Source of the DNA: Arbacia lixula | Lineage: Eukaryota > Echinodermata > Echinoidea > Arbacioida > Arbaciidae | Reading direction: 5' to 3' | DNA length: 64,000 nucleotides | Assembly (NCBI GenBank): GCA_963669155.1 | Contig: OZ022588.1 | Coordinates: 15,523,200-15,587,199, forward strand | In this document: positions 23,283-60,255 of the stretch, in pieces | Layout of the letters: the number at the start of each line of letters is the position of its first letter | Numbering within the stretch: the stretch's first letter is position 1 | The notes under the pieces: model-generated | Database searches by the model: none | What the model saw: only the letters and a program-made list of their open reading frames with translations | What the model was told of the DNA's origin: nothing | Position numbers and translations under genes: made by a program

Positions 23283-23514
23283 CGAAGGTTTCCTTCACGT
23301 TTTACATCGTCATCGGGATACGATTTGATTTTTGATATGTAAGTTTGAGCTCATGTTTTAAGCTGAGTCATGAAATGCCAACTCTCCAGCGCTGTCATCA
23401 GACTGTGTTGTGTATTTTCACGTCGGCGAAGTGGCAACTGCGTCGTCCCTTTTCACGATGTCGATTTTCATGATTGTTTGCTCATGAGCCCTAATTCTCT
23501 CTGTTCTTTTGCAG

Positions 23515-23800
23515 AAATTAAAAGGTGGGAGCTGACCTTGACAACGGCAGATCATCCATCCGTCAGCTCAGCCTCAACAAGAGGGCTTCATGACATGATA
23601 CGTGAGAGAGCCAAGATTGCCCGACCTACCGTCTGTCTCTCACGACAGCTCATCAAGCCACGCAGACGATGATTCGTGATTCCCCGAGATATCAGCGGGC
23701 GCGAAATTAAAGAGGCTTCATCACTTTGGCCGGAAGAAAGCAAGCGGAGGAGAGAGAGAGAGTGGACGGACAAAAGAGATGTTGGTGATCAGTCCTTGAG
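23515..23800 (+). other. Candidate 5' noncoding exon of the sulfotransferase gene (copy A)
   Basis: The stretch is bounded by a pyrimidine-rich acceptor (CTGTTCTTTTGCAG, ending 23,514) and a plausible donor (TTGAG then GTAATG at 23,801). It is more conserved between the copies than the sequence after it: a few substitutions, a GA-repeat length change, and one indel of exactly three bases. An open frame runs through its first half and stops at 23,672. If real, an intron of about 3.9 kb separates it from the exon at 27,658. A leader exon is only one reading; an internal exon of another transcript is possible. Confidence 0.35.
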
Positions 23801-24177
23801 GTAATGATTACTATAGGTCGTGCCCGGGAACAAGCAGTGTTGGGGTTGATGTATTGTTATTGTGCGTTATAAAAAAAAAAAAAAACGTTTCCAAGAAAGA
23901 AATTTTGCTCAAATGAAATCTATCCATGGCTCAGAGATGCAGTTTAAAAGCGTGACCTCCTTACCCATTTTTTTCGGGGGGGGGGGGGGGGGGGGCTTTG
24001 TGGGTTCAGTACGTATTATTCAAGGAAAAACACAATTCATAATACGGTAATGTACAGAAGAGTCAAATTTGCTCAAGCGCTCAAGACATTTCACTTTCAC
24101 TAAAATACTTTGGTCTTTGATAAAATATGTACGTATGTGTGTCTTTGTGTGTGAATTCAGGTTTTTAAATAATTTAA

Positions 24178-24746
24178 AGGGTTACGAAATTAGAAAAATA
24201 AGTTCCCACTAATCTATTTTAAATTATCCACTAAAAACGAATTTCACATTTGTTTGCCGCAATAAAGTCTCATTTTGACGAAAATTTGAAGAAAAAAAAA
24301 CGCAGGCCTCCAGTGACTTTAGAGAAGTCAAAATGCCATGGATTGTACGGAAGTCAGCAATAGACTATTTTCGTAATGTATTCACAACTTTCCCCCCAAC
24401 TGCGTAGTAACGCGTTATTGCATTCACCTGTATCTTATCATTCAGATTCAATGGATGGAATGAACTTTGAATCTATTAGTTGTTGCTACTCGGACAAACC
24501 TCGGACAAATTTTGGGTTCCCATTGGTAACGTATTGTTTGAACGGCGTAAATAAAATATTTTATTCACGCATTTGGCATTTATGGCATTTTGACTTCTAT
24601 GACGTCACTGGAGCCGTGCAGTTTTTTTTTTTTTCAAATTTTCGTGAAAATGAGACTTTATTGCGGTAAAACGAATGTGAACTTCGTTTTTAGTGGATAA
24701 TTTTACATAGATTGGTGGGAACTTATTTTTCTAATTTAGTAACCCT
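24178..24746. mobile_element. TTAA-flanked fold-back element with approximately 165-bp inverted repeats (copy A)
   Basis: TTAA at 24,174-24,177 and 24,747-24,750 flank inverted arms beginning AGGGTTACGAAATTAG and ending CTAATTTAGTAACCCT. The arms pair over roughly 165 bases each (about 24,178-24,343 and 24,585-24,746), through CAAAATGCCA and TGGCATTTTG. The central 240 bases belong to a family also found at 60,945 and 63,166. TTAA is the piggyBac-type target, but the ends begin AGGG rather than CCY, so I leave the superfamily open. Confidence 0.8.
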
Positions 24747-24784
24747 TTAATCACGTCTGGTACCGACCTTTTGCTTCATCAACC

Positions 24785-24862
24785 GCAATACGTGGCCTGG
24801 ATTTGAACATCGAACCTTTGTCGATGTATAACCCCCACAGTCTCTCAACGCTAATTTTTCAT
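24785..24862 (-). mobile_element. tRNA-like fragment, possible SINE head (copy A)
   Basis: On the minus strand TAGCGTTGAGAG resembles a pol III A box and ATGTTCAAATCC a B box, about 45 bases apart as in a tRNA. Acceptor pairing is absent. Either a decayed SINE head or chance. Confidence 0.35.
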
Positions 24863-27196
24863 TTGCTGTGTATGATTTAGTTAAGTATTTCTTAAATATG
24901 TAGGGTTTGTAACACATCGTGGATCTCATCAAAACTTTGGTCTGATCCGACCCATACGGTACATGAATGGTAACCCGTGAAGATGAAACAGAATCCAGCA
25001 GACGAAACCAGAGTTAACCACCTCGCTGCCAAGTCTGGAGAAGAACATTGATTATTTTTCACATTCCATGCTCCCATGGGATAAAGAGGGTTAATTCCAC
25101 GACGAAGTGCGTAATAATTCAATTCAATTTCCACAAAATTGCACATGGGAAATCGATGTTGTCCACCGACCGTACTAAATTCGACAACCTGTGAATGACC
25201 TTCAATGTTAAACGGGTTCATAGCTTGCGCATCAGCTTGCTCAGCAGTGAGTCAGGACTGGATGTTCTTTTCATCTTGTTTTACATCTTGCACTTGCATT
25301 TGGCAACTACATTTATAAATAGTTGGCTGCTTCTAGGACAGTAACCAAATAATCATTGATTTCGAGCTGCCATAATGGGAAATCTGTATGCAACAGTGTG
25401 TATCTCATCTGGTATTGTGCTTCTTGTTCTATTTGTACATTGTAATGGTATTGGTATGGATCATGTATCTGAAATGAAACTGGCTCGTAAATTATGCACG
25501 GTTCCGTGTCATAAACCCTCTTTACCTTTCGGGAGAATCACCCCAGACGCAGCCTAGTCTTCAGGCAAAGACTCGGTTATAACACTGTCTCAGCATTATC
25601 CATGGTTTTGATAATACTGTAGCTCTCACCTGTGCACATTACTGCCCTACTCTGACAAAAGGAAGCAAGTGACAAAACACTCAAATCTGGGTTATTGGTA
25701 TTCTTAGGTTGTACCCAGCATTCCCTACATACCCTACATACAGGCAAAATCTGGACGAGAAATTTTCATCTTGCTGCGAGGTATTCAATCTAATATGAGG
25801 TGTTGCACTGATGCCAATGCAACACATTTTGTTCATTTACAAGAAAAGTCTCTTTTGTGAGTTGCTTCCTTTTGTCAGAGAAGGGCAGTTTATATGGAAA
25901 GAAGTCTCTGCATTTCAAGCTCGACCACCGACTGGAAAAGAAGCTAAGAGTTACCATGGTAACAGAAAGGGCAATGAAAAGAATGATGATAGGTATCACG
26001 AGAATGGACACGGTACAAAAACAAGGGACCTACCTCAAAGAAATGGAGGTATGCTAGTCATTTAGTCAGAGGGAACGATATGAGACTGGACACATATAGG
26101 GCATGTACTATAAAGAAGAAAAGGCAGACAATTATTTAGGAGATGCATATGAAAGAAAGGGACATGGAGAGTTATACAGACGGACAAGAACAGCACAGGG
26201 CCTGCAGAGTGAAATGGAAAATTGGTGTGAAGTGGCCTTCTTCAACACAGAAGTGAAATAGGCTAGATATGTCGATAGATAGATATATATATATATGCAG
26301 GGTGATAGATGTATAGATTGAAAGAGAGATAGGTGATTTATATCGAGAGATAGATTGATACGTTCAAATAAGGTGACAGATGGATACATCGATACATTGT
26401 ATACCGACTGACAAGGATTTGTCAGTGTGCATGGATGTAGGATCCATATGTTCGTGAATGCCCAATGTGCAATGTCTATGTGCGATGTATTATAAACGAG
26501 CACAGCGGGCTATGTCAAGTATCATGAGACCTTCAACTTGGCCTTCATTCGCGTGTCCTGCACGGCGCACAAAGGAAGTACTGTGTCGTCGTCGGGCGCG
26601 CCTATTAGCTCACAACGGGCGTTCACATTCTCAGTTGTCGCAACTTCATCATCTATGAAAACAAATGTACTCGAAGCTAGAGGAAAAAAAACTCTGCACA
26701 CAGCTAGAAACCCCTTTGTACAGATTACGCTTTGTGTTCACTTAGACAGAACCGTGTTCTATGTTTGAGTTTATGATTTGAATATACGCCACACTGGTTT
26801 GGGAAAATCACTGAAATCTGCCAAAATTAAGTGGGGAAAAAATGAGAGAAATTAAAGGAGATGAAATTAAAGAGTATTGTAATCACAACTGAGAACAAAC
26901 ATGAGGACGCATGCCTATTTACTTCGTACCATTAAGTTGACCATTAGCGACCCGTCTTTGTCGACTGAACATGTTCTTTAGTTCGATTTCCCTATGTGGT
27001 TATTGGATCATCTCTTCCTGGTGGAACCACCTTTAAGTTTAAGCACTGGTCGGAAGTATTTCGATGGATTCCGAATTCTTAGTCTCGTCATGGAATGTGT
27101 TGTGGACGAAGATCAGGAGATATTTGAATGATTGTAAATTATATAATCATTGTATTAAAAAAGAAACACCGTCTTACGGGAGTGCGTGATACACTA

Positions 27197-27411
27197 CAGC
27201 TCAAAGGAATTGGCATAGAGAAAGGGAAAGGGAAGAAAGGGAAGGAGCCGCAGTTTAAAACCGCGGTGTATTTTGTCAAGTTCAGCATGACACATGATGC
27301 TTTTTAGGCTAAAACATCGAGTTTCATGCTGAACTGGACAAAATCTACCGCGGTTTAAAACTGAGGTTCCTTCCCTTTCCCTTTCCCTATGCCAATTTCT
27401 TTGAGCTGTTG
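27197..27411. repeat. 215-bp inverted repeat with purine/pyrimidine arms (copy A)
   Basis: The left part (CAGCTCAAAGGAATTGGC, GAAAGGGAAAGGGAAG, CCGCAGTTTAAAACCGCGGT) is repeated in inverted order to 27,411 (ending AATTTCTTTGAGCTG). The hairpin loop is about 25 bases near 27,300. It ends 246 bases before the acceptor at 27,658. Present in copy B. Confidence 0.8.
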
Positions 27412-27657
27412 TGTATATCGTTTCCACTTCCTCTTTCTCCTTCGTTCCAAACTTCTTTAGGAATCACAACTGAAACTCTGATCATGCCACTTGTGGATCG
27501 TTTCACCATCAATACACATTAATCCAACGGAGCAGCATTTTGCTTGGCACGCAAAGAGTTAATGTAGCGCTCTTTGTGAGCTCTCTGCTTCCCCACGCCC
27601 CCACCTTTATTTTGAATATTAATTTACATGTAATATTCTCTCTTCCCTTTCTCACAG

Positions 27658-27852
27658 GTTCTCCAACGTGTGCGACGAAGGATAAGGCGTCGGTTACCAG
27701 GCAACAACAGCCTTCATTGTCAACAGTGGCTGTTACCAAGCTAGTCGCTGTTTCGTGCCAGGAGCTCACAATCCTACGGGCTGAATGATGATGGTGAGAC
27801 ACAGAACGAAGCTACCTCACTGGCGTTTGCTTCAAAGACTCAGTCTCCGAAC
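27658..27852 (+). other. 5' leader part of the sulfotransferase coding exon (copy A)
   Basis: A strong pyrimidine tract ends in CTCACAG at 27,657, giving a good 3' splice site 195 bases before the start codon. From this acceptor to the ATG the two copies differ at one base only, clearly less than in the intron just upstream, which points to exonic constraint. An in-frame stop at 27,742-27,744 shows the stretch is not an N-terminal extension. Splicing here is inferred, not shown. Confidence 0.6.
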
Positions 27853-27862
27853 ATGGCTCTAG
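27785..27862 (+). promoter_or_regulatory. Overlapping upstream ORF with three consecutive ATGs (copy A)
   Basis: Three ATG codons in a row at 27,785, 27,788 and 27,791 open a 25-codon frame that ends at TAG 27,860-27,862, ten bases past the enzyme's ATG at 27,853 and in another frame. A ribosome starting here could not simply reinitiate at the main start, so the uORF would be expected to lower translation unless leaky scanning occurs. It depends on the leader being transcribed as inferred. The same frame is intact in copy B. Confidence 0.5.
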
Positions 27863-29640
27863 GCGCGTTTATGACTCGAAAATGGATCAAACCATTTCTC
27901 GCCTTCTTTCTCCTCACAATCGTCTCGCTCCTTGCCTTCGGGAATATCACGTCAAGAATTAGCTGGAACGTCGTGTACGTGAAGAGCGCAGGAACATCTC
28001 CAGACCCGAGCGCTCGCCACAGCCTAGGCCTTGCGGACGTTGAGCAGATCATGGCGGTATCCAGCGGGGCCGCTTCATCACCGCTTCCTGGCCGAAGGAG
28101 CTCCACCGCTACTACGCCGCCGCAACAGCAGACGACGGAAATACCCGCCATGACCAAGGATGGTGGTGCTTTGCCAGGTCATTCGAACCTGTCCGCCTTT
28201 CACAATGTTAGTAAAGAAGTGAAAAGGGTTTTGTCTGTCAATCGCGCAAATATTTCTCCCGTGCTTATACACAAGCATAGCGGTCTTTCGCTAAGCTTGA
28301 ATGAAAATCACCTTGCATCGAATTCATCAGATTCTTCGTCAGACTTCAGTGCATCATCATCATCAGCAGCATCACCATCTATCAACATTAGCCTGATAAA
28401 TGAAGCAATAGATCACAGTGGTCCATTTTACAATGGGAACGGGTCAAATGACAGGACAGAAAGCGCAGTCAAACAACAAGAAGGGACAACTAAACCGGTA
28501 TTTATTATTTTGTTAGCACGTATGCGCACTGGTTCAACTCTTATAGGAGAAATATTTAATCAAAACTTAGAAGTCGGGTTTCTTTATGAGCCGCTGCATG
28601 CTCTGTGTGACTGGACTAAGCGAGGACTTATACAAAAGTCCCAGTACAATTCGCAGGCTACTAATCTGCTACGTAAACTAAGTTCGTGTGATTTCCCGCG
28701 GGATTTTATATCGAGCGTGGTGAATTGGCCGGCGGGTGGCGGATTTCGAAGCAGCATGATTCACCCTGTGTGTGCCGCAACGAGCTCATGTCGACACGCG
28801 ACGACACAGATGCTGCGCCGTAGATGTCTCACGTTCCACAAGTACAGGAGTATCAAAACTATCCGCGCGGACCTCACTATGGTGTCTAAGATCATCGACG
28901 AGGGCGCTGTCGATGTTAAAATTGTTCACCTCGTTCGCGACCCTCGCGGCGTCGCAAACTCGCGGCGTGGGGTCTACTCGACAGAACGTACCTCAACACA
29001 GCGCAGGCTCGCGGCACGTAGATACAGGACCCGAATTATACATGACCGCGCGTCCAATCCGTTCCATCGCCCAGACGTCAAGGCATTTCCCGCGTTCTCG
29101 AGCCGTTATCAGCGGTTTCGACCACACCCCGGCCAAACGAGACTGGACGCGCTCGGCCTGATGGATACCGCGGATGTTTTCCCCCTCCTAAACACCATGC
29201 CAGCGTACTGTAAGTGGTTGAAATCCACTATTTCCCTGGTGCAGCAGAAACCCCACTGGCTGCGCGGCCGCTACAAGCTGATTCGCTATGAGGACTATGC
29301 GGCAGCGCCCGTGCGCGTCACTGAAGACATCTACCGCTACTTTGGTATGCAACTTCCGGAGAACGTGCACGATTGGGTCGCGACCAACACTAAAACGGAC
29401 CAAACTGACGCCAAGAATGACGATGTGGGTCGGCTCTACGGGTCGCATCGGAATTCCACGGAAACGGCCTTCAAATGGCGGAAGGAGATGACGTCACAGG
29501 AGGCGCTGCAGATTGAGAAGTTGTGCGGTGACGTCATGGAACGGCTAGGGTATCGAAGAACGTCCCGCAATATTCGACTCTCCGACTTGAAGCAATCTCT
29601 ATTCCTCCCTCTTCCAGATGATATTCCACAAGAATTATGA
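27853..29640 (+). CDS. Carbohydrate 6-O-sulfotransferase-like, type II Golgi membrane protein (copy A)
   Basis: The product (595 aa) should transfer sulfate from PAPS to a 6-hydroxyl of GlcNAc, Gal or GalNAc in glycans in the Golgi lumen. Seen: a short basic N-terminus, one hydrophobic segment at about residues 14-30, then a Ser/Thr-rich stem to about 213 with Asn-X-Ser/Thr sites at 31, 112, 118, 133, 157, 178 and 196. The catalytic domain starts near 214: 5'-phosphosulfate loop RMRTGSTL at 223-230, FLYEP at 243-247, 3'-phosphate motif HLVRDPRGVANSRR at 359-372, RYEDYAAAP at 478-486, FKWRKEM at 540-546 and LGYR at 565-568. The order matches the CHST1/CHST3/CHST7 group; the stem is longer than usual. 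The start is fixed by an in-frame TAG at 27,742, by A at -3 and G at +4. The CDS is uninterrupted, as is common in this family. The exact acceptor sugar cannot be read from sequence. Confidence 0.95.
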   Translation: MALGAFMTRKWIKPFLAFFLLTIVSLLAFGNITSRISWNVVYVKSAGTSPDPSARHSLGLADVEQIMAVSSGAASSPLPGRRSSTATTPPQQQTTEIPAMTKDGGALPGHSNLSAFHNVSKEVKRVLSVNRANISPVLIHKHSGLSLSLNENHLASNSSDSSSDFSASSSSAASPSINISLINEAIDHSGPFYNGNGSNDRTESAVKQQEGTTKPVFIILLARMRTGSTLIGEIFNQNLEVGFLYEPLHALCDWTKRGLIQKSQYNSQATNLLRKLSSCDFPRDFISSVVNWPAGGGFRSSMIHPVCAATSSCRHATTQMLRRRCLTFHKYRSIKTIRADLTMVSKIIDEGAVDVKIVHLVRDPRGVANSRRGVYSTERTSTQRRLAARRYRTRIIHDRASNPFHRPDVKAFPAFSSRYQRFRPHPGQTRLDALGLMDTADVFPLLNTMPAYCKWLKSTISLVQQKPHWLRGRYKLIRYEDYAAAPVRVTEDIYRYFGMQLPENVHDWVATNTKTDQTDAKNDDVGRLYGSHRNSTETAFKWRKEMTSQEALQIEKLCGDVMERLGYRRTSRNIRLSDLKQSLFLPLPDDIPQEL

Positions 29641-29819
29641 TAAATACTGATGCTCATTACCAAGTAGTACCTTGATTTGCCCTCCCCCCCCCCCTTACTG
29701 TATATTTAATCTTTTGAACAACTAGCAATCTAAAGATTCATTGGCCCGTGAACCTGACATGTTGCGCACTGATGTAGTATTGATACGAGAAATATTTGCG
29801 ATTCTCCCTCCGTGTCTTA

Positions 29820-29950
29820 GGCTACCGCAGACGACACGGTCCGATTAGTCGTACGACTCTGCGATCAGCTGAATCGCAGGGCCCGGTCACATTTCTAGTC
29901 GTAGGACCTTACGATTGTAGAATCGTTGCAGCATCATGTCGCCCGATATG
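29820..29950. mobile_element. CTACCGCAGACGAC-type MITE fragment (copy A)
   Basis: Shares CGCAGACGAC, CTGAATCGCAGG and CCCGGTCA with the better-preserved element at 34,221-34,339. The right terminal repeat seems lost. Confidence 0.5.
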
Positions 29951-30271
29951 GCCCTAAGACTTGTTTGCCTTTTGTAAAAAAATTCAATTCAATTAAATTT
30001 TTTATTCATTTAACAAACAACAACTTTCATGAACAATGAATATAATGCATCACAGGAAAGCCGATAGCTTGTGAGGCGTGATAACCTTTAACGTGTGGTT
30101 CAATGCACTCAAGTATAAAGTCCATTAGTTAAATGACATACAATAAGATGAACCAAAGTACACAAATTACATACAAATACGTACTTTAAAAATACATCGA
30201 AGAAAGACTAATACAAACACACACAAAACAAAAAACAAACGAATAATAACAGCTAAGGTAATAATCATCAG

Positions 30272-30277
30272 AATAAA
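30272..30277 (+). promoter_or_regulatory. Possible poly(A) signal, copy A
   Basis: AATAAA lies 632 bases after the sulfotransferase stop and is kept in copy B. Its use is not shown; the region is AT-rich, so chance is plausible. Confidence 0.2.
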
Positions 30278-30953
30278 CAGTATGTGATATCAAAATGTCA
30301 AAATATAGTGCGCTTATGTTTACCTCCGTATGTGAGGGCCCTTTACAAAGATCCCTTTGATGATCCACATCTAACCTGAAGAAAGGTGACATTCCACATT
30401 TATGTAAGTGTTTATGTAGACTGAAATATTGTTGAGAAACTGGGCCTATTCCAATTTCATAGAATTTTGATGAAATGGTATTGACAAGTATTGTGTAGCC
30501 TGTAATAGCTTTGTTTCATTTGTGAAAAGTATTGTAATATGTTTTGTTTTTATTCAATTCGATGCATGTGCCAAATGCTGTAGGTGACTTGTAATTTTAA
30601 CAGATACAATATTATTTCAATATCTCAGGAAACGACAAACGCTCGTTATAGCATACAGTAATGGTACAGTGCCCCAGCGCTAGGGTCTTTTTTTTTCACT
30701 CTTGACACACCATTGAGGCGCAATGCACATAATTCCTATCAAGCTGTATTTTGTATGGCACATGGATGATTTCATCTGTCATCTGTCATTCAGTCTGACT
30801 TAGGGTACTTTTAGGAGATAGCAATTTGCCGCTAGTGCTTGCCATAACGGGTCGTTGTGGAGTTTCTTGCCTCTTTGGATGTGGTGATCCATTTTGTCAT
30901 TACTTGTAGATTGTGTATTGCTTTGCCGCAGCGGTAAATTCCTGGCTTAACAG

Positions 30954-31840
30954 CAGTGTTGCCAAAATTCCCCGCCTTAAGTAGCGGTAAGTAGCCGTGA
31001 AAGTCGCCCAATTTAGAAAAAAAAGTAGCCCAAACGGAAATATCGCAATTTCAAGGTTATAGGCCCGGTCACACCGCCAGAATTTTGCTGGAGCGTTCCT
31101 AGAGCGGTGAAAAATGTCATCACCGCTCGTTACCGTTCACCACCGTTTAAAAGAAGTTGGCCTCCGTTAAGGCAACGCCTTATACGCTCGGCCACCGCTG
31201 ATGGTGCCTCCTATCGCTCCGAAAGTTTTGAGCTGCAAAGAATATTGCGAGCGGTGAGGAACGGTAATTTTCTGCTCCGGCAAAGTTCACCACCGCTCCA
31301 ACAACGCCCAGTCAAAGTTTGCCTGGGCGGTGATTAAACGTTGCACAAACGTTGGTGGAGCGGTTGTAAGCGTTTTACGAGCGGACACGAGATTGCTGGA
31401 ACGGTGTTGGGCGTTGAAGCAGCGATCCATTGCGGTGATGAACTTTGGTTTGGCGCTGGTATGGAGGTGTCTGAGCGTCACCGCTCGCGTCACCGCTAAA
31501 CCAACGCTAAACCAACGCCGGCTTCAGCGGTGTACCGCTATGGCAACACCCGTGCTTACGATTTTTTTCCCCCTTATTTTGTGCGCGGTGACGAGCGCTT
31601 TCGAAATTCGGCCCCCTCTCCCTACCGTTCAAGGAACGCTCCAACAAAGCTCGGGCGGTGTGACCGGGCCGTATACAGCATGATGATACTAGGTGCAAAT
31701 GTATGTTTGGTAGTGGAGAAATTAGCAATTCAGAAGTAGTCAAAAAGTAGTGAAGTAGCGGTAAGACTTTGCAAGTCACGGCGCTGAAGTCAAAAGTAGC
31801 GCAATCTGGCGCCTAAATCGTGGCTTAATAGGCAACACTA
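30954..31840. mobile_element. hAT-like nonautonomous element, interrupted by a second MITE (copy A)
   Basis: Ends CAGTGTTGCC at 30,954 and GGCAACACTA at 31,840, flanked by a perfect 8-base target duplication CTTAACAG (30,946-30,953 and 31,841-31,848). The CAGTG end and 8-bp duplication are hAT hallmarks. No transposase remains. The GGCCCGGTCACACC element at 31,062-31,670 sits inside. Confidence 0.8.
31062..31670. mobile_element. GGCCCGGTCACACCGCC-ended MITE nested in the hAT element (copy A)
   Basis: Terminal inverted repeats of about 45 bases start GGCCCGGTCACACCGCC and continue through TTGGAGCGTTCCT-type sequence with few mismatches. The interior is full of ACCGCTC and CCAACGC words. In copy B the flanks are TTATA on both sides, a 5-base target duplication. 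No coding capacity. Confidence 0.8.
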
Positions 31841-32110
31841 CTTAACAGTGCTCGCAGCTAGCGGAAGTCACAAAATTCTTTCGTGTGAACGTACATTAAT
31901 AGGTCTGAAATGCCGGCGGCGACCAGCTGACCTGGTGTACATGCCTCCGTGCTAAACCGATATCACTCAATTGCTGAACGGATGTCGCCATGATTTTTTT
32001 TTACTTTGGATTCCGCCATAGAATGACGAGTTTTGCACGAAGCTATAGTTCAGTATACATGTTTAATAAACTCTGGTACTATGCACAATCGTTTAAAAAA
32101 AAACGTTTCT

Positions 32111-33096
32111 ATGCTTCCGCCACGAATTGGCGGAATTGGCCGGAGGCAATCTGTTTCGGGTTGTCCATTTATCCGTCTGTCCGTCCGTCCCGAATCCGTT
32201 TAAGCAATATCTTGAGAACTATTCAACGGATTTGCTTCTAACTTGATACCTGTATGCCATTCATAAAACCAATGACCTGTGTAAAATTGGGGTCAAATCG
32301 GACGAAGGTCAAAGGTCCATGAACTTTACAAAAAAAAAATGCAAAAATTGTCCCTCCAAAAACTGTTTACGCAAGACATGTATCTTGAGAATCATGTACC
32401 GGTTACGGATTTGCTCCAAAATTGGTACGTATACATTGCATTTATAAAACCAATTAGTGTGTAAAAATTACATCAAATTGGATGTAGGTCAAAGGTTCAA
32501 TGAACGTTATATAGTTTTATAATTATTATTTGTCACCTATTAGATCCTCATCTAACTAAACTTGTTGTGCAGACAGACCATGACACTGTAGTTAACAAGG
32601 GGCATATTTAAAAAAAAACTGAAAGGTCATTGAATTTAGTCCAAAATCACCAAAATAGTCCAAAATGTGATCTTTTTCCAAATATCCAGATCATATATCT
32701 GATCATCCAGTACAACCAGATATGATGCATAGGTGTATCAATCCCTGGAGATAGACTGGAGAGATCAGAACTGAAATTTCTTAGAGGTCAAAGGTCAATG
32801 AACTTTGCCAGCATCAACTAAAAATTGGCCCTAAAGTAATATTTTTTTGCAATAACTAGAAAGTCAATGGTCCAATTTCTAAGCAATGCGATGGTTCACT
32901 ACATGGAGATATGTTAATGAAATTTGAGGTTGACTCATTCGAAGGTCAGAGGTCAATGAACTTTATCAAGGATTAGGAATTCAATGGTCCAACTTCTACC
33001 GAACACATAAGCAGAGTTGAGCATCAATTCAAATTAGGTGAAGCTAACATAAAGGCGGAGACATATTTATAGACTGCGTGGCAGTCGAATTGCTCT
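32111..33096. mobile_element. Helentron-associated-type element, old copy (copy A)
   Basis: Starts ATGCTTCCGCCAC with a hairpin closing at CGGAGGCAA, then TCCGTCTGTCCGTCCGTCC, then diverged tandem units containing AGGTCAAAGGTC-like words. It ends GGCGGAGACAT, hairpin GACTGCGTGGCAGTC and AATTGCTCT. Same architecture as 48,152-49,810 but more diverged, so an older member of the family. Copy B has the same insertion but lost its 3' end. Confidence 0.7.
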
Positions 33097-33327
33097 CCTA
33101 TTTTAGGGAAGAATTAGTATAAACACTCATTACATTGCGTTGCTCTCTATGATCACCTTATTAGGATTTTAACACGGGCGTCATGTCTAATTCTGGGCTA
33201 GCCTCGGTAGTACAGTCTGCTCCTTTCTAATTCGCTACTCTAACCGCAACAGAAGATTGAGTATTATTGATGCGCTATATACATTCGGATTCGGGCTGAT
33301 AAAATGCGTCTAGAACCGAAACTATGA

Positions 33328-34065
33328 CCCCGTTTACAGTGGGGGCCGAGCCGCGGCCGAGCCGCGGCCGAGCCCGGGCCGAGCCTCACTGTAAACGCTC
33401 AAAAGGCCAAATGCGCGGCCAAAAACGGCCGCGCATTTGGCCAACCTCAGGAGGTAGTCTCGGCCCGGGCTCGGCCGCGGCTCGGCCCGGCCTTTTCTCA
33501 CTGTAAACGCATCTCGGGCCAAAATGCGGGGCCAAATCGCCGACCCGGAAGTGCACTGACTGTGACGTCACCATTCACAGGACATGACGTAGTTATCTCC
33601 GAATTCGATTTTCCTCATCCATATTCTTGTGTGCACAGACAGGAGAACCAACTGAAAAAAACTAGGAATGCATATGGGTAGCTAGATACTGTGTGAAGTT
33701 TCGGCAAACCCTACGAAAAAACCGGAGTGAAATGCATAAAATGCAGTACATGCACTGATGTAGCGATGTACTATACTATACTATACTATACTGTACCGGT
33801 AACCGCGCGTACGTGTAAACGTAAACAACTGGCAAATAGCCCGCGCCATATTGCACCTTCGCTCTGTGACCCCGGCGCGCTCCCTAATAATCGTTTGTTT
33901 ACATGCATAGCGCCACTACGACAAAATATTGAAAGGTTGAAGTTATATACCGGGCCGAGCCCAGCACTGTAAACGCACATAATTCGAGGGCCGAGTACCG
34001 CAATTGAAGCCGGGCCGAGCCGCGGCTCGGCCGCGGCTCGGCCCGGCCCTGCACTGTAAACGGGG
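33328..34065. mobile_element. GC-rich MITE with CCCCGTTTACAGTG ends, absent from copy B
   Basis: Perfect 14-base inverted ends CCCCGTTTACAGTG (33,328-33,341) and CACTGTAAACGGGG (34,052-34,065). CACTGTAAACG recurs internally near 33,387, 33,500 and 33,965, always next to GGCCGAGCCGCGG-type palindromes. It looks like an element built of smaller related hairpins. In copy B the site is empty near 53,932; a poorly matching 8-base flank may be an old duplication. Confidence 0.8.
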
Positions 34066-34113
34066 TCTCAGAGAACGGTTGAGATAAGACGAGGAGAAAC
34101 CAGAATGATAGAA

Positions 34114-34137
34114 GGGGGGGGGGGGGGGGGGGGGGGG
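34114..34137. repeat. Poly(G) run of 24
   Basis: 24 consecutive G in copy A; copy B has only a short GGAGGGG here (near 53,975). Confidence 0.95.
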
Positions 34138-34220
34138 ATGAGAGAAGGGGATACCCAAGTATCGCGTCGTGCCACAAAAACAGTTACAGTATTCGTAACA
34201 TCTATTTCATCAGTCTGTTT

Positions 34221-34339
34221 AGGCCCCTGCAGACGAACAGCTTAACATACGACTGTACGACTGGCTGAATCGCAGGACCCGGTCATGGGACTTGTAGGTG
34301 ACGTCACATTTTTAGTCGTCAGTGTCGTCTGTGGTAGAC
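34221..34339. mobile_element. Short CAGACGAC-ended MITE (copy A)
   Basis: CTGCAGACGA at the left and TCGTCTGTGGTAG at the right are inverted; the middle shares CTGAATCGCAGGACCCGGTCA with 29,820. About 50 bases of the left part are missing in copy B (site near 54,076). Confidence 0.55.
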
Positions 34340-36554
34340 TTTGATATTGTTTTTGATGTTGTTGTTGTTTAAAGTAAAATGAATAACTATGCTTGCTGTG
34401 CGTCTTGTTCCGCTATACTGATGCTGCGCAGATATCTGTCTTAAAAGTCTTTCTTCACAATGAGTTAACCAAAATATGTGTCCACATTATATTTAATGTC
34501 TTTATACCACAACTTGATTTAGTTTTAATAATATTTACAAGGGCTGCGTACAAAGTGTGTGTTAAATTTAGTGCATGATATGAAACTTTCATGGACACAA
34601 TGTTACAAACTGGAGATTGTAGAAGGTGATATAAAATCGTGTATGGAATGCCCTAGGCCGAGCCATCAGCGACAGGGAGGTCATTCTCCCGAATCTTCAG
34701 GAGTTGGCAGATACTCTGAGGGAAGAATGTGATGATGTGCCTGTTGACGTCATCAACAAGCTAGTGGACAGCATGCCATGACGTCTGCATTGCGCGGGTT
34801 CGTGGGATCAATAAATTGCCATTGTCATTGGCATTGTCATTGCTATGGGTGGGCCCATAAATTGAGTAAGAACAATTACTCAATTTTAATCAAATTCGTC
34901 CGTGAAATCACAAAAGAGAGAGAGATTGAAATAAATATCTCACGATCCTTACTTTAATGTGTATTGTCGTCATTCTTTGTTCATGATATCCATCGCGTAG
35001 GGCATAAACTTGCTAAAGTCCGTGTCTTATGTGTGCAAGAGGCAGGATGATAAAGTAAAGTCCTTATGACGCACCATATATGCCATTTTCAAATCATATT
35101 AAGCTGATTATGCTGTGAAAAAATACTTTACTTTAATGGCGAACCGTGTATACACACCATTGCTACATTTGCTTGGCAAATACATTACATGTACTACATG
35201 TACTATTAATGTTCATATCGTATGAAAGGTTCAATTTGGGAGGTACTAAATAGGAATTTAACTTTCTAGGTTTGAAGTACATGTATATTGCACATAAATA
35301 TGACAAAGCATTGTCTCTCAGAGTGAGCCTTCAGACCTTGAAATCTGGAAAATGAACACCTTCAGAATTCTCGCAGGACACACCATCTGTCGTCTGCAAT
35401 AGTCTCCTTTTTAGTGCTGGGTACGGATGGTCGTCCTGTTAAAAAATACATACAAATCAGCAGACATTTATGTGTTGAAGGATGTGAATGCAATGATTTA
35501 AGTGTTATTATGCATAGATCCAGTATAATTGGCGGAGTGACATTCAGTCAAATGACAAACAGAATAAAGATACACCTTTTCAGACAAACCTTATGAGCCA
35601 AAAAGGTGGAATGATAAATTTGGTCGGATGGTTAGAATTTCCTTTTTTTTTAGGTAGCCTACATGTATATATATATATATGTGTGTGTCTGTGTGTGCGT
35701 GTATATATGAGTGTGTGGGTGTGTGTGTGTGTGTGTGCAGTAGAAGTACATGTAGTAGTAGTAGTATAGTAGAAGCAGTAGTACTTTCATGAATTTGGAC
35801 ATGAACGCTTGATCCCAAATTTTTATAATTTCAATTTCATCTCAATTCAGAACTTGCATAATCATTAAGTAAAATCAATATTCTTGTGCACACTTCAGAG
35901 CTCGGTGATCTCCCGACCGCCCACCCACCTAACAGTATGCTGATTACTGTATACCCCCTTCAAACTTTGGTTGGTACGGGTATAATGACTTAAATAAATG
36001 ATTTGCATTCTGATACATTTAAGGACTTCTTCACTGTGGAGCACAATATAGATGAAACAAAACGTAACATTTCATGGCAATTCTTAAAAGGCATTACATG
36101 TACTTGAAAACAATTCCAGTTTCAAACTAGAAACGTGCTGTGTCCACAGAACAAAGTTGATCCTGATTGATGTTATCAGTTAAAACAAAAAAGCATTGTT
36201 TTTATCTAGTAATCGGAAAATAATTTGAATTAATATTGAGCTGGGTCCTTAACCTTTAAACTACAGACTCCAAATTTGACCTTAACTTATCTTTTAATGC
36301 AATTTGCCTTAATTAAATCCATCAAAATATTATTCAATATTATCATTGAATATCTTTGTCCACTAGCATGCTGCAACCAATATGCATACCGGTATAACAA
36401 GGTGTGAAGTCAAACTTGACCACTGCAGGGTAGTCGAACGGTAGAACAGATAGGACAATAAAAGCACATGTACAATGTAGATTGGAGGAAAGAAAGTAAA
36501 ACAGGGGGAAGAATGTGAGACAGCAGGATAGAATGTAGAGGAGTGGAGAATGGA
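34340..36554. other. No gene recognised (copy A)
   Basis: AT-rich flank, colinear with copy B. Holds a TA/GT microsatellite at about 35,664-35,740 and AGT repeats near 35,755. The short frame around 35,414-35,596 (ATG-lacking in copy A) differs between copies at mostly amino-acid-changing sites, so is probably noncoding. Confidence 0.35.
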
Positions 36555-37855: not shown

Positions 37856-38213
37856 ACACATTCCCCCAAAAGGTAAATTTTTTACAGGTAATTGACAGAA
37901 ATGCATGAATATGGCTCAATATATTTCACTCATCCCAAGGAGACCAACCATGGAATTTTCATTTTCCCAAATGGGAAGGAATGATGCTTTTTTTTTAACT
38001 TCATGATTTGCTGAGTTCTTGGAGCATTCTTACTTTTTTTTGGCAATGATATATATCTATTCATTGCTACTTTCAAACAATTACAAAATAACACTGCTTT
38101 AATGGTAGGACCAGAAAACTCCCGTAGATGGCGCTATACAAGTTACCTCATCCCAAAATATAGCAGGCTATGGCATATTTTTGGTGTCGGAATTTGTTCG
38201 CTGCTACATTGAT
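37856..38213. other. No gene recognised (copy A)
   Basis: Unique flank between the minisatellite and the next element; closely matches 57,966-58,325 in copy B. Confidence 0.4.
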
Positions 38214-38839: not shown

Positions 38840-39540
38840 GATTTTTGGGGAATGATTATACAAATTAGTCCAGCTGCATAGCTGAATAATTGTTCACTTT
38901 TTTCTAAAAGCACCAAATTTGGCACACATGTAGAATTAAATTGTCTAAGCAAATTTGGATATTGAGCCCTCTTGAATTTTGTCCAGGGAGGCAATGGCGG
39001 CCATTTTTAAAAACGTATTTTTTCATATTTCAAGAATCTTTCACACTTATGGACTGAAACGTTTTGAAAATTTACCGATGGATATGTTTCATATTGTGTG
39101 TAAATATGAAATTCCTTCCATTTCATGATATATAGTAATAGTATTCCAAAGTTAAAACTTCGATGCTTGCTAAAGCAGCATTTTGCGCATATCGGTCTTC
39201 CGCCGTATGTTTAACACGCAACCATCATGACCATGTGCATCGGATCTGAACGTCCCATATACTCGCCAGATATGCTAAAACTTGGAAAATTTGGTACCAT
39301 TGTCATCGAGGACTACTACATACAGACATTATTTAATGAAACTTCAACTACCTTCCTCTGGGGGAACAATCTACCAGCTAACACTAATTGTTAAACATAG
39401 ATGTTACTGAAAGAGTATGTTGTTGCTGAGGTAACCAGGAGGAAGACTAGACATTGACAATCTATGTACCGTCGGACAACCCGTCTTGCCCATGAGCTGT
39501 TCTGCCTGTTCACAATTATATAAAACACTAAATAAAAAAC
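38840..39540. other. No gene recognised (copy A)
   Basis: AT-rich sequence colinear with 58,327-59,035. No supported feature. Confidence 0.4.
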
Positions 39541-45415: not shown

Positions 45416-45425
45416 ATGGCTCTAG
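45348..45425 (+). promoter_or_regulatory. Overlapping upstream ORF with three consecutive ATGs (copy B)
   Basis: Same arrangement as 27,785-27,862: three ATGs from 45,348, stop TAG at 45,423-45,425, overlapping the main ATG at 45,416. I see no base difference from copy A before the stop. Confidence 0.5.
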
Positions 45426-47837: not shown

Positions 47838-48151
47838 CAGTATGTGATATCAAAATGTCAAAATATAGTGCGCTTATGTATACCTCCGTACGTGAGGGCC
47901 CTTTACAAAGATCCCTTTGATGATCCACATCTAACCTGAAAACAGGTGACATTCCACATTTATGTAAGTGCTTGTGTAGACTGAAATATTGTTGAGAGAC
48001 TATTTCATTGAATTTTGATGAAATGTTATTGACAAGTGATGTGTAGCCTGTAGTTGTAATAGCTTTGTTTTATTTGTGAAAAGCATTGTAATATTTTTTA
48101 TTTTTTCTTCAATTCGATGCATGTGCCAAATGTTGTAGATGACTTGTAATT

Positions 48152-49810
48152 ATGCCTCCGCCACGAAGTGGCCGGAGGCATTATGTTTTCGGGTTGTCCG
48201 TCCGTCCGTCCGTCCGTCCGTACGTCCGTCCCGAAACCGTTCAGGCAATATCTCAAGAATCGTTAACCAGATTTGCTTCAAACTTGGTACATGTATGTAT
48301 TGCATGAAACCAATGAAGTATGTAAAATAGGGATCAATTCTGATCGAGGTCAAAGGTCAAAGGTCAATGAACTTTGTGAAAAATTGCCCAAAATTTACCT
48401 TTTTCACAATAAAGCTAAATCCGAGGATGCAATTCTCATGAAACATGGTACAAAGATGGATCATTACTTGGGAATAGACTGGTGACATTTTTGATAAAAT
48501 TCATAAAAGTTCAGAGGTCAAAGGTCAATGAACTTTGCCAAAATTGGCTAAAAACTGCCCCAAGCCTTATATTTTTCACAATAAAGTCAAATCCAAGGAT
48601 GCAATTCTCATGAAACATGGTACACAGATGGATCAGTACTTAATAGACTGGTGATATTTTTGATAAAATTCCTGAAAGTTCAGAGGTTAAAGGTCAATGA
48701 ACTTTGCCAAAATTGGCTAAAAACTGCCCCAAGCTTTATATTTTTCACAATAAATCCAAATCCAAGGATGCAATTCTTATGAAACATGGTACACAGATGG
48801 ATCACTACTTGGGAATAGACTGGTGACATTTTTGATAAAATTCCTTGGGGTACAGAGGTCAAAGGTCAATGAAGTTTGCCAAAATTGGCTAAAAACTGCC
48901 TAAAACTTTATATTTTTCACCATAAAACCAAATCCAAATATGCAATTCTCATGAAACGTGGTACTAAGATGGATCACTACTTGGGGATAGACTGGTGACA
49001 TTTATTTGGTGAAATTCTTGGAAGGCCAGAGGTCAAAGGTCAATGAACTTTGCAACAATTTGCTAAAAATTGGCCTCAAATTGATATTTTTCACAATAAA
49101 CCCAAATCCAATGGTGCAATTCTAGCGAAACATGGTACAGACATGTTTCACTTCATGGAGGTATATTAATGAAAGTTCAGGTAAAGTTCAGAAAGGTCAA
49201 AGGTCAATGAACTTTGCCAAAAATTAGCTAAAAATTGAGCCCGAAGTGATATTTTTCAAAATAAATAACGATCCAATTGTGCAATACCAACCAAACATGG
49301 TGCAAAGATGGATCACTACTTGGGGGTAGACTGATGATATTTTTGGTGAAATTTCTCAAAGGTCAGAGGTCAAATGTCAATGAACTTTGCCAAAATTGGC
49401 CAAAAATTGTCCCTAATTTGATATTTATCTCATTGAATACAAATCTAATGGTTCAATTTAAATTAAACATGGTACAAAGATGTATTACTTCATGGAGGTA
49501 GACTGGTGAAAGTGTGGGTAAAATTTCTGACAGGTCAAAGGTCAATGAACTTTACCCCCAAATTGGCTAATTTTAAACAAACTTGATACAAGGATGGATT
49601 TAGATGGACTGATTTGATTGGAAGTCAAAGAAATAAGAGGTCAAAGTTCAATTTACATTGCCAAACTTGGCTAAACATGGAAAAACAGAATTAAAACAGA
49701 ATTAAATGGTTTATTGCCCACCAAACAGGTTTTCTGAGAGAAAACCCAAATAGAGCTCGCAAAGAGGCGGAGGCATATTTATCGACTGCGCGGCAGTCGA
49801 ATTGCTCTAG
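48152..49810. mobile_element. Helentron-associated-type element with approximately 170-bp tandem units, absent from copy A
   Basis: The 5' end is a 30-base hairpin (48,152-48,181, ATGCCTCCG against CGGAGGCAT), then a TCCG microsatellite. About eight diverged units of roughly 170 bases follow. A 5'-end copy in inverted form lies inside the 3' end (GGCGGAGGCAT 49,766-49,776), then a perfect hairpin TCGACTGC-GCG-GCAGTCGA (49,782-49,800), ending ATTGCTCTAG. An internal tandem array, subterminal inverted repeat, 3' hairpin and T-rich target without a long target duplication are known traits of nonautonomous Helentrons. The matching empty site is at about 30,594 in copy A. Confidence 0.75.
48347..49544 (+). 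promoter_or_regulatory. Array of perfect DR1 motifs AGGTCAAAGGTCA
   Basis: Perfect copies start at 48,347 (extended to three half-sites through 48,366), 48,515, 48,856, 49,030, 49,194 and 49,532, one per tandem unit; variants occur near 48,684 and 49,367. AGGTCA-A-AGGTCA is the consensus direct repeat with one-base spacing bound by RXR heterodimers, HNF4 and COUP-TF. Function here is not shown. Confidence 0.5.
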
Positions 49811-51137: not shown

Positions 51138-51880
51138 CTTAACAGTGCTCGCAGCCAGCGGAAGTGACAAAGTTCTTCCGTGTGAACGTACATTAATAGG
51201 TCTGAAATGCCGGCGGCGACCAGCTGACCTGGTGTACATGCCTCCGTGCTAAACTGATATGACTCCATTGCTGAACGGATGTCGCCATTTTTACTGTGGA
51301 TTCCGCCATAGAATGAAGAGTTTTGCACGAACCTATAGTTCAGTATACATGTTTAATAAACTCTGGTATATGCACAATCGTTTTTTAAAAAAGACGTTTC
51401 TATGCTTCCGCCAGAGGCCGGAGGCAATCTGTTTCGGGTTGTCTCTTTATCCGTCTGTCCGTCCGTCCCGAATCCGTTTAAGCAATATCTTGAGAACTGT
51501 TCAACGGATTTGCTTCTAACTTGATACCTGTATGTCATTCATAAAACCAATGACCTGTGTAAAGTTTGGGTCAAATCGGACGAAGGTCGAAGGTCCATGA
51601 ACTTTACAAAAAATTGCCAAAATTATCCCTCCCAGAACTGTTTACGCAATATCTTGAGAATCAGGTAACGGATTTGCTCCAAAATTGGTATATATATGGC
51701 ATTTATAAAACCAATTAGTATGCAAAAATTGGATCAAATTGAATGTAGGTCAAAGGTTCAATGAACTTTATATAGTTTTATTATTGTTATTTGTCACCTA
51801 TTAGATCCAATGGTCCTCATCTAACTAAACATGTTATGCAGAAAGACCATGACACGGTAGTTAACAAGGGACATAATTTT

Positions 51881-53520
51881 ATTGTCTCGCCCACCGGAGG
51901 TGAAGGCGAGACTAAGGGATCCAAATGGCGTCCGTCCGTCGTCCGTCCGTCGTCCGTCGTCCGTCACAAATGTTAAAGTTTACCTGCAAGACTCTCTTAT
52001 GATCCATAACTTGGCAACTGTTACAGCAATGGCAGCCACACTTGGTTGATAGAAGCACTAGGGGTATCTTCATGTTATGGTGTTGTCAGAGGTCATGTGA
52101 TGATGTCAAAGGTCATTTGAGGTCATATATTAAAGAGTATATGCAAGACTCTCTTTTTCTATGTTAAAGTTTACCTGCAAGACTCTCTTTTGACAAATAA
52201 CTTCACATAGGTTGCTTAGATTACAACCTAACTTGGGTCATAGATGCACTGGGGGTACCTTCATGTTATGGTACCGTTGGAGGTCACAGGATAAGGTCAA
52301 AGGTCATTTGAGGTCATACGTTAAAGTTTACCTGCAAGACTCTTTTGACAAATAACTTCACATGGGTTGCTTGGATTACAACCTAACTTGGGTCATAGAT
52401 GCACTGGGGGTACCTTCATGTTATGGTGCCGTTGGAGGTCACAGGATAAGGTCAAAGGTCATTTGAGGTCATACGTTAAAGTTTACCTGCAAGACTCTCT
52501 TTTGACAAATAACTTCACATAGGTTGCTTGGATTACAACCTTACTTGGGTCATAGATGCACTGGGGTACCTTCATGTTATGGTACCGTTGGAGGTCACAG
52601 GATAAGGTCAAAGGTCATTTGAGGTCATACGTTAAAGTTTACCTGCAAGACTCTCTTTTGACAAATAACTTCACATGGGTTGCTTGGATTACAACCTAAC
52701 TTGGGTCATAGATGCACTGGGGGTACCTTCATGTTATGGTGCTGTTGGAGGTCACAGGATAAGGTCAAAGGTCATTTGAGGTCATACGTTAAAGTTTACC
52801 TGCAAGACTCATCACTAATGCTTTCGAGAAATGTTTCTCTAAATAATAAGCTCATTATGACACTACATTGTACAAATCATCTAGAAACCCTCAGCTGGAC
52901 TGCAACCACAAACATATTTAACCTTCCCACATATACAATATTAATGCCATAATATTACTCATATCTGTTCAAAATTGTTGCTTTTAAACTGTCTCTAATC
53001 ATTCACTTTTCCCCTGACAGGTTATCAAGTCTCCAAAAAAATTATTCTACTTTGTTCACTTTACATGCATGCCTTATTACAATCATAATGTTCAGCATTA
53101 TTCATGTCTGTTGACAAACTTTCTTATATAAACGTATCAATTTTAGAAACTTTATTCCATGTTCAGTTTTCAACTGCAGCACTAATTTTAACCTTTTTAC
53201 ATTTCTATGCCCCCAGAGACAAAGTTTACTTCGCCTCTATTGTGCAACTGATTATCATCCTGTTTTGTCTTTGTCTAATCTAATAGAACTTGGTGGAGGC
53301 TTTTTATTCCATCTCAAAGAAGGGGGAAGGTGGGGGAGGGGGAGTAGATAGAGGAAGTAGCATTGCGTGAAATAGCCCTTCTCATTTATGGAATGTTACA
53401 TTCTATGGCAGATATTTCACAATCAGCCAGGGATACAATTCTTTTGCGTAGCAACGGAGATCGCGATATTTCTGGTTATTTTCGCAAGTGGGCGAGACAC
53501 AATATTGCTAATGCCTTGTT
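51881..53520. mobile_element. Second tandem-repeat element (ATTGTCTCGCCCAC ends), absent from copy A
   Basis: The 5' end ATTGTCTCGCCCAC begins a nested hairpin (GTCTCGCC against GGCGAGAC, with CACC-GGA-GGTG inside). TCCGTCG repeats and about five units of roughly 156 bases follow (51,970-52,810), then a unique AT-rich stretch. The inverted end GTGGGCGAGACACAAT is at 53,488-53,503, shortly before the junction. The layout resembles 48,152-49,810 but the sequence is different. It sits inside the older Helentron-type relic. Confidence 0.7.
52294..52774 (+). promoter_or_regulatory. Second array of perfect DR1 motifs
   Basis: Perfect AGGTCAAAGGTCA at 52,294, 52,449, 52,605 and 52,762, each followed by TTTGAGGTCA (a third half-site four bases on). 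A variant lies near 52,104. Spacing is 155-157 bases, the unit length of this element. Confidence 0.5.
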
Positions 53521-56404: not shown

Positions 56405-57965
56405 ATAAGGACAACGATGTAGAACGTAGAAGGTCGGAGGGTAGAACACTGGATGCATGGTAGAACGCAGAGGAACAAAAGGGTGGAACATAGACGGACA
56501 GAAGGTAGGGCGTACAGGACGGAAGGTAGAATGTAGAAGGATAGAGGGTGGAACGTAGAAGGATGGAGGGTAGAACGTAGAAGGATGGAGGGTTGTACGT
56601 AGAAGGATGGAGGGTTGTACGTAGAAGGATGGAGGGAGGAATGTAGAAGGATGGAGGGGAGAACGTAGAAGGATGGAGGGGAGAACGTAGAAGGATGGAG
56701 GGTAGAACGTAGAAGGATGGAGGGTAGAACGTAGGATGGATGGAGGGGAGAACGTAGAAGGATGGAGGGTAGAACGTAGGATGGATGGAGGGTAGAACGT
56801 AGAAGGATGGAGGGTAGAACGTAGAAGGATGGAGGGTAGAACGTAGAAGGATGGAGGGTGGAACGTAGACGGATGGAGGGTGGAACGTAGGATGGAGGGT
56901 AGAACGTAGAAGGATGGAGGGTAGAACGTAGAAGGATGGAGGGTAGAACGTAGAAGGATGGAGGGTGGAACGTAGATGGATGGAGGGTAGACCGTAGAAG
57001 GATGGAGGGTGGAACGTAGAAGGATGGAGGGTAGAACGTAGAAGGATGGAGGGTGGAACGTAGAAGGATTGAAGGTGGAACGTAGAAGGATGGAGGGTAG
57101 AACGTAGAAGGATTGAAGGTGGAACGTAGAAGGATGGAGGGTAGAACGTAGGATGGATGGAGGGTAGAACGTAGAAGGATGGAGGGTGGAACGTAGGATG
57201 GAGGGTAGAACCTAGAAGGATGGAGGGAAGAACGTAGAAGGATGGAGGGTAGAACGTAGAAGGATGGAGGGTAGAACTTAGAAGGATGGAGGGTAGAACG
57301 TAGAAGGATGGAGGGTGGAACGTAGACGGATGGAGGGTGGAACGTAGGATGGAGGGTAGAACGTAGAAGGATGGAGGGTAGAACGTAGAAGGATGGAGGG
57401 TAGAACGTAGAAGGATGGAGGGTGGAACGTAGATGGATGGAGGGTAGACCGTAGAAGGATGGAGGGTGGAACGTAGAAGGATGGAGGGTAGAACGTAGAA
57501 GGATGGAGGGTAGAACGTAGAAGGATGGAGGGTGGAACGTAGATGGATGGAGGGTAGACCGTAGAAGGATGGAGGGTGGAACGTAGAAGGATGGAGGGTA
57601 GAACGTAGAAGGATGGAGGGTGGAACGTAGAAGGATTTAAAGGTGGAACGTAGAAGGATGGAGGGTAGAACGTAGAAGGATTGAAGGTGGAACGTAGAAG
57701 GATGGAGGGTAGAACGTAGGATGGATGGAGGGTAGAACGTAGAAGGATGGAGGGTGGAACGTAGAAGGATGGAGGGTAGAACGTAGAAGGATGGAGGGTG
57801 GAACGTAGAAGGATGGAGGGTGGAACGTAGAAGGATGGAGGGTAGAACGCAGATGGATGGAGGGTGGAACGTAGAAGGATGGAGGGTGGAACGTAGAAGG
57901 ATGGAGGGTAGAACGTAGAAGGATGGAGGGTGGAACGTAGAAGGATGGAGGGTAGAACGTAGAGA
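56405..57965. repeat. 22-bp minisatellite, copy B (longer, with higher-order repeats)
   Basis: Same unit as copy A but about 250 bases longer. Rare variants recur about 567 bases apart: GTAGACC at about 56,990 and 57,557, GATTGAAGG at about 57,111 and 57,677, and a GGATGGATGG unit at about 57,150 and 57,717. A block of roughly 25 units was therefore duplicated as a whole. One minus frame stays open for 613 codons. Confidence 0.95.
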
Positions 57966-59518
57966 CAACACATTCCCCAAAAAGGTAATTTTGTACAGGT
58001 AATTGACAGAAATGCATGAATATGCCTCAATATATTTCACTCATCCCAAGGAGACCAACTATGAAATTTCCATTTTCCCAAATGGGAAGGAATGATGCTT
58101 TTGTTTTTGAACTTCATGATTTGCTTAGTTCTTGGAGCATTTTTACTTTTTTTTGGCAATGATATATATCTATTCATTGCTACTTTCAAACAATTACAAA
58201 ATAACACTGCTTTAATGGTAGGACCAGAAAGCCCCCGTAGATGGCGCTATACAAGTTACCTCATCCCAAAATATAGCAGGCTATGGCATATTTTTGGTGT
58301 CGGAATTTGTTCGCTGCTACATTGATTTTTGGGGAATGACTGTACGAATTAGTCCAGCTGCATAGCTGAATAATTGTTCACTTTTTTCTAAAAGCACCAA
58401 ATTTGGCACACATGTAGAATTAAATTGTTTAAGCAAATTTGGATATTGAACCCTCTTGAATTTTGTCCAGGGAGGCAATGGCGGCCATTTTTCAAAACGT
58501 ATTTTTTCATATTTCAAGAATCTTTCACACTTATGGACTGAAACGTTTTGAAAATTTACCTATGGATATGTTTCATATTGTGTGTAAATATGAATTACCT
58601 TCCATTTCATGATATATGGTAATAGTATTCCAAAGTTAAAACTTCGATGTTTGCTAAAGCATTTTGCGCATATCGGTCTTCCGCCGTATGTTTAACACGC
58701 AACCATCATGACCATGTGCATCGGATCTGAACGTCCCATATACTCGCCAAATATGCTTAAACTTGGAAAATTTGGTACCATTGTCATCGAGGACTACTAC
58801 ATGCAGACATTATTAATGAAACTTCAACTACCTTTCTCTGGGGGAACAATCTATCAGCTAACACTGATTGTTCAACATAGATGTTACTGAAAGAGTATGT
58901 TGTTGCTGAGGTAACCAGGAGGAAGACTATACATTGACAATCTATGTACCGTCGGGCAACCGTCTTGCCCATGAGCTCTTCTGCCTGTTCACAATTATAT
59001 AAAACACTAAATAAAAACATTTAGATTCTAATATTTCGTTTGTATATCTGTTATAATATATTTAACAATTGGTCATAAAAAACTGAAAATTCATTTTAAT
59101 TCTTATGTATTTCATTGTTTTTGGATTTTCTTATGCATTTCTTTGTTTTTTTTACTTTTGTTTTTCTTTGTTTTTTTATTGAAAATTGTCACTGACCACT
59201 TTTCAGCCATGATTAGCATCAAATTAATCAATCAAAATTGTCAAATGGAAAAATAATTAGGCTTTTATGAGTTTTATGAACGAGCACTGTTTTCCATAGG
59301 AAATGCACACAAAATTGCAAAATTGTGCACGTTTTGGGATGACATGCGTTACGAAAACGGGCGTGGCTCCGAAATGGTATGCATGGATGTCGCGAATTTG
59401 ATCTCAAAAGATGCGCAAGACTTGAAAGAAAAAAGTCAAGATATTTTGCGATGAGTCGTTTTTGCGTTGCAGCATTATTGCACGAAACGTCAAGGGGAGG
59501 GGGACATGCACATCAACC
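57966..59518. other. No gene recognised (copy B)
   Basis: Colinear with 37,856-40,320 of copy A but without the MITE and with one rather than two copies of the 175-bp block. Confidence 0.4.
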
Positions 59519-60255
59519 TGAAGAATGAGACAGACAGACAGACAGACACACAAAGAGACAAAGAGAGATAGATAGAGAGAAAGAGAGAGAGAGAGAGAGT
59601 GACAGACAGACACACAGAGATACAGAGAGAGACAGACAGAGAGAGACAGACAGACACAGAGACATAGAAAGAGAGAGAGACAGAGAGAGACAGACAGACA
59701 CAGAGACATAGAAAGAGAGAGAGACACACGGAGAGACAGTCAGACAGAGAGAGGAAGAGAGAGAGAGAGACAGATACATAGAGAGACAGAGAGAGACAGA
59801 CACACTGAGACAGAGAGAGAAAGAGAGACAGACACAGACACAGAGAGACACAGAGAGAGAGAGAGAGGAGGAATGACTACATGCAGGAAAACATGGCTGA
59901 TATTTGTAAAGAGGCAAACAGACGGGGGTAGAGAGAAAAGGGAAAATCTAGAGAGAGAGAGGGAGGGGGGAGAGAGAGAGAGAGAGAGCGAGGGGGGGGG
60001 GGGGGAGGGGGATGCTCCTACAGCGAGAGAGGGAGAGGTAGGGGGAGGGAGAATACGCTGCTATAGCGAGAGAGGGTGGGGGGGGGGGGGGGGGTATACT
60101 CCTGTAGCGAGAGAGAGGGGGGAGGAGGGGGTCCAGAGTGATAAACTGTAGCGGGAGAGGGGGGGGGGGGGGGGGGGTGAGGGAGAGAGGGAGATGGATG
60201 TACAATAGCGAGAGGGGGAGGGAGAGAGAGATAGAGGGGGGGGGGGGGGTGGTAA
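59519..60255. repeat. (GA)n, (CAGA)n and G-rich purine repeats (copy B into unique sequence)
   Basis: Purine repeats to 59,870, a short unique piece at 59,871-59,940, then G runs (for example near 59,993-60,004, 60,076-60,093, 60,160-60,177 and 60,236-60,249) separated by TAGCGAGAGAGG-type units, themselves a loose tandem repeat of about 60-80 bases. The homology to copy A ends at 60,061. Confidence 0.9.

Follow-up and report, generated by a model that had tools for sequence, protein, structure and literature searches.

A sulfotransferase-bearing segment found twice across a scaffold gap of the Arbacia lixula assembly is very likely two alleles of a single locus

A segment carrying a sulfotransferase gene stands twice, in direct order and on either side of a scaffold gap, within a 64,000-nucleotide stretch of the genome of the echinoid Arbacia lixula (GenBank assembly GCA_963669155.1, contig OZ022588.1, positions 15,523,200 to 15,587,199 of the forward strand; here called the window). 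The locus raises the question of whether these copies, A and B, are two neighbouring loci produced by tandem duplication or two versions of one locus. They are very likely two alleles of a single locus that were both kept and laid end to end by the assembly, a reading that rests on comparisons within the assembled sequence. The assembly as searched comprises 606,990,701 bases in 590 contigs and the window lies at C13:15523200–15587199; coordinates given without a contig name are those of the window.

The window contains a single run of N (40824–41023), exactly 200 long, which separates a left from a right contig. Within the window, the left contig comprises 23,467 bases before the overlap (1–23467, searched over 20500–23467) followed by copy A as its tail (23468–40823, 17,356 bp, plus strand; read here as haplotype 1), and copy B forms the head of the right contig (41024–60061, 19,038 bp, plus strand; read as haplotype 2). 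Comparison of 1–40823 with 41024–64000 using blastn joins A and B into one colinear segment in direct order that runs from 23468/41024 to 40823/60061, with block identities of ~83 to 96% and a longest block of 94.1% over 7.2 kb. The main blocks have E = 0, far beyond chance, and chance similarity of the copies is rejected on both the blastn chain and a mafft alignment. Base 1 of the right contig aligns at 23468 (two mismatches across the opening 60 bases), and the final 21 bases up to 40823 in A and 60061 in B are identical; homology is thus bounded by the opening base of the right contig and the final base of the left contig, both of which are edges of the gap. Two statements of a first-pass annotation of this DNA, that the same segment forms the tail of one contig and the head of the next and that homology starts and stops exactly at the 200-N gap, are borne out by the chain and by the identity of the end bases. 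Beyond the copies, comparison of the left and right sides with 20 kb added to each gives short repeat matches only, none longer than 250 aligned bases.

The copies had also been described as colinear throughout; their order is indeed kept from end to end, but insertions and repeat arrays interrupt the chain. The automatic BLAST chain consists of eight blocks and has six breaks that leave 100 or more bases unmatched in A or B (0/1656, 0/1640, 300/18, 743/0, 988/580, and 613/418 in A/B). The 988/580 and 613/418 breaks hold homologous stretches that were dropped from the chain for overlaps, and 37852–38213 and 39733–40187 of A match B.

The exact fit of the homology to the gap had been offered as the argument for alleles, as a real tandem duplication would need the gap to fall on its junction by chance. 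This argument is not diagnostic. The visible homology is bounded by contig ends and the A–B junction is the gap itself, where the true breakpoints of a longer unit could be hidden. If the tandem unit (18 kb or longer) extends beyond the homology that can be seen, with the last part of A and the first part of B lost in a gap of unknown length, the homology edges would also fall exactly at the gap edges, and no coincidence is involved. The edge coincidence is therefore rejected as proof of alleles, and the geometry tells only against a duplication that is present in full. A duplication of that complete kind, with a unit of exactly 23468–40823 and a junction that meets the gap by chance, has only the tandem layout in its favour and needs the very coincidence named in the first-pass annotation; it is barely credible. 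The longer unit with an internal gap explains the edges but requires sequence to have been lost on either side of the gap, and its junction is crossed by none of the contigs; it is unlikely.

The sequences at the contig ends bear on both of these duplications. The final bases of the left contig form a low-complexity tract rich in purines and in G (40337–40823; 81% A+G over the last 400 bases) that includes a run of 13 G. The same tract is present in B (59554–60250) and contains a ~43-bp G-rich array (59994–60131; Tandem Repeats Finder) that runs past 60061, where the homology to A stops, with further runs of 17, 19, and 14 G. Copy A stops inside an array whose continuation is present in B, and its end therefore has the appearance of a contig break rather than a duplication breakpoint, which counts against a unit that ends precisely at 40823. 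The tract would equally give a longer tandem unit a cause for the break in A. The right contig opens with ordinary sequence, as a contig beginning with the first bases of a read would, and no feature is seen there that would account for the second break that such a unit needs. Fragmentation of the human telomere-to-telomere assembly graph has been put down to missing HiFi coverage over GA-rich sequence (PMC9186530). The 200 N are probably a placeholder, and the same number is found at a second gap of this assembly. Gaps of 200 N are likewise described in a section of another assembly's paper that names the scaffolder YaHS (PMC12134992), and a passage of the YaHS paper asks for haplotypic duplications to be removed beforehand (PMC9848053).

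The divergence between A and B, taken from the BLAST chain, amounts to 657 substitutions in 14,366 aligned bases (4.57%) with 8.4 gap openings per kb. The chain was used because a global mafft alignment misaligns 32615–34131, where each copy has an insertion of its own, and its identity of 90.3% is too low. The differences are distributed in patches: in the mafft columns A and B are almost the same over 23468–24974 of A (17 differences across 1500 aligned columns), and the following 1500 columns differ by 7–10% (35, 50, and 39 differences per 500). Across 21 non-coding windows, for which the masked repeat stretches were chosen by hand, the differences range from 1 to 50 per 500 columns (536 in 10,806 columns; chi-square 112 with 20 degrees of freedom). 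Unevenness of this sort would be as for recombining haplotypes.

Unplaced contigs of the same assembly provide a measure against which this divergence can be set, and four of them (C310, C510, C160, and C260) were searched. Colinearity with C10:23,909,648–23,932,665 on the minus strand extends over the length of C310 (19,437 bp), which is most likely a leftover second haplotype of that place; pairwise matches cover C310 from 1 to 19426, although the final C310 block in the chain may be a chance low-complexity match. C310 and C10 differ by 770 substitutions in 14,909 bases (5.16%) with 7.3 gap openings per kb, and their large blocks are ~92–94% identical. The dispersion index per 500-base window, obtained by the same method, is 5.03 for A–B (28 windows) and 4.59 for C310–C10 (29 windows). 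In substitutions, small gaps, and unevenness the A–B divergence thus matches that of an apparent haplotig pair, with one such pair measured in full. A gapped tandem duplication would have to be of an age that reproduces all three of these values. C510 also looks like a leftover second haplotype, and is colinear with C17:14,277,362–14,282,793 (87% identity in the piece used as query and 89.1% over the 3 kb that follow). A further unplaced contig, C110, is exactly 50,000 bases long, a length that hints at a cut made manually or by software.

The segment occurs in two copies as far as the searches reach. A 601-base probe from the segment is found, apart from a dispersed repeat, in two places only, both of them in the window (best 40 of 923 candidates). 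The sulfotransferase protein is likewise found in two places only, with all 25 candidates scored, and the next match is 38% identical and lies on C3. No third copy of the segment or of the gene was found among the scored candidates (40 of 923 for the probe; 25 of 25 for the protein). The left flank (20500–23467) has a single full-length match, itself, in the best 40 of 6326 candidates; the other listed matches cover positions 1–481 of the query only, where a dispersed repeat of ~474 bases lies at the left end, together with one match of 68 bases. Just to the right of B is a dispersed repeat of ~3.24 kb (60270–63509) with ~40 places scored, mostly 84–94% identical (best 40 of 5310), and no Pfam family is found in the two reading frames in or overlapping it. 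A repeat at the opening of the right flank is able to mislead scaffolding, and the right contig could then derive from a paralogous locus elsewhere and have been wrongly joined here by the scaffolder. That both places matched by the segment probe are here argues against such a join, as does the end-to-end overlap at the contig tips, which is the pattern of neighbouring contigs of one locus, and a misjoined paralogue is decidedly improbable.

Several observations weigh against the two copies being alleles. Gene conversion between real copies could also give patchy divergence. The allelic status of C310 is itself deduced from its sequence, and C310–C10 has 16 breaks that leave 100 or more bases unmatched in at least one of the two sequences, compared with six for A–B. 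C510 and C17 look more diverged than A and B, and also more than C310 and C10, and C160 and C260, two of the four unplaced contigs searched, matched dispersed repeats only. No contig joining the left flank to B-like sequence was found among the best 40 of 6326 candidates. The second 200-N gap (C10:23,909,359–23,909,558), ~90 bases from which the C310 match ends, has sides that do not overlap (21 kb compared with 28 kb), so that overlap is seen at one of the two gaps inspected and is not the rule in this assembly. With these points considered, the view of A and B as alleles is still the best supported, by a divergence like that of C310–C10, by the lack of a third copy among the candidates scored, and by the array that is cut where A stops.

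Each copy contains one sulfotransferase coding sequence of 595 codons (stop codon excluded), at 27853–29637 in A (plus strand; Pfam PF00685, E 1.2e-12) and at 45416–47200 in B (plus strand; PF00685, E 4.9e-12), and the single-exon frame is intact from its ATG in both. The PF00685 scores are 48.2 bits in A and 46.2 bits in B relative to a curated cut-off of 22. No match to the A protein is found in the PDB at E 0.001. A hydrophobic stretch lies near the N terminus of the protein, which suggests a Golgi enzyme with type II membrane topology, given what is known of the family. The two genes differ at 47 nucleotides and at 27 of 595 amino acids (dN 0.020 and dS 0.049 by NG86; 0.021 and 0.041 by YN00), and 21 of the amino acid differences precede the Pfam domain (217 residues), with six in the 378 residues from the domain start on. 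If the duplication were real, this N-terminal bias would represent early divergence of two enzymes. The intact reading frames of both copies are compatible with a gapped tandem duplication, including one that is young or copy-number-variable and carries the sulfotransferase gene; this variant has a low probability. If A and B are alleles, the sulfotransferase gene count is inflated by one.

Four larger insertions distinguish the copies. B alone has an insertion of 1661 bp (48150–49810; empty site in A at 30594) that has a 172-bp tandem array between short ends and ends in CTAG before T, presumably as in Helitron-like elements. A second B-only insertion of ~1640 bp (51879–53518, from the BLAST chain) and two A-only insertions, of 743 bp (33328–34070; empty site in B) and 629 bp (38211–38839; empty site in B at 58323), have inverted ends as seen by eye. 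Inverted ends are a feature of mobile-element insertions, and these three of the four are putative examples.

The arrangement can be accounted for by the assembly of a diploid animal in which one contig ended in haplotype 1 and another began in haplotype 2. Haplotypes that differ by ~5% in substitutions and by several insertions of 0.6–1.7 kb might leave an overlap of 17–19 kb unrecognised, and the scaffolder would then have placed the contigs end to end with a 200-N placeholder gap. Low read coverage over the purine-rich tract may have caused the break, on the supposition that HiFi reads were used, and the overlap would correspond to approximately one long-read length; the read type and the scaffolder are likewise supposed. 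The true structure would be the left flank, one copy (either A or B), and the right flank, with one sulfotransferase gene.

Other features of the window are mostly repetitive. A 22-base minisatellite is present at 36525–37851 in A (~57 copies) and at 56419–57963 in B (~70 copies), and minus-strand open reading frames of up to 613 codons that sit within it are probably by-products of the repeat. A dispersed repeat of ~335 bases (30001–30334) lies within both copies and has more than 30 further places listed at 78–92% identity. Ten further reading frames of the window match no Pfam family at E 0.01, Rfam gives nothing above its thresholds in the window, and a search of a phage collection with 28000–33000 gives zero matches.

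Gene-family counts and surveys of recent duplications in this genome may carry false pairs like A and B; the artefact matters for gene counts and is otherwise of little interest. The locus illustrates how a pair can be judged without reads, through comparison with leftover haplotigs of the same assembly, and it also cautions that the exact coincidence of homology edges with a gap is not enough to separate alleles from a gapped tandem duplication.

Among known systems, a recent tandem gene duplication is similar in having two intact genes that resemble each other and share one orientation (here at a distance of 17.6 kb in the scaffold), and differs in that here a gap parts the copies, with no sequence running across the junction. 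The artefact is most likely a false heterotype duplication, a well-described kind. In the sections of Ko et al. 2022 (PMC9516828) that describe such cases, diverged versions lie side by side with a gap between them and an extra gene, and the divergence is at the level of haplotypes, as it appears to be here from the assembly sequence alone; an intervening assembly gap counts among the published marks, together with half depth, discordant read pairs, and single-copy k-mers. The heterozygous overlap handled by purge_dups (Guan et al. 2020, PMC7203741) is alike in that the tail of one contig matches the head of the next, and unlike in that purge_dups makes its calls by read depth whereas A and B are judged from the assembled sequence; a passage of the same paper describes overlaps retained between homologous chromosomes in heterozygous outbreeding species, among them most insects and marine animals. 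Pseudoduplicates are described for echinoderms in a further report (PMC8361234), in which several alleles kept in the assemblies of outbred broadcast spawners yield groups of highly similar genes.

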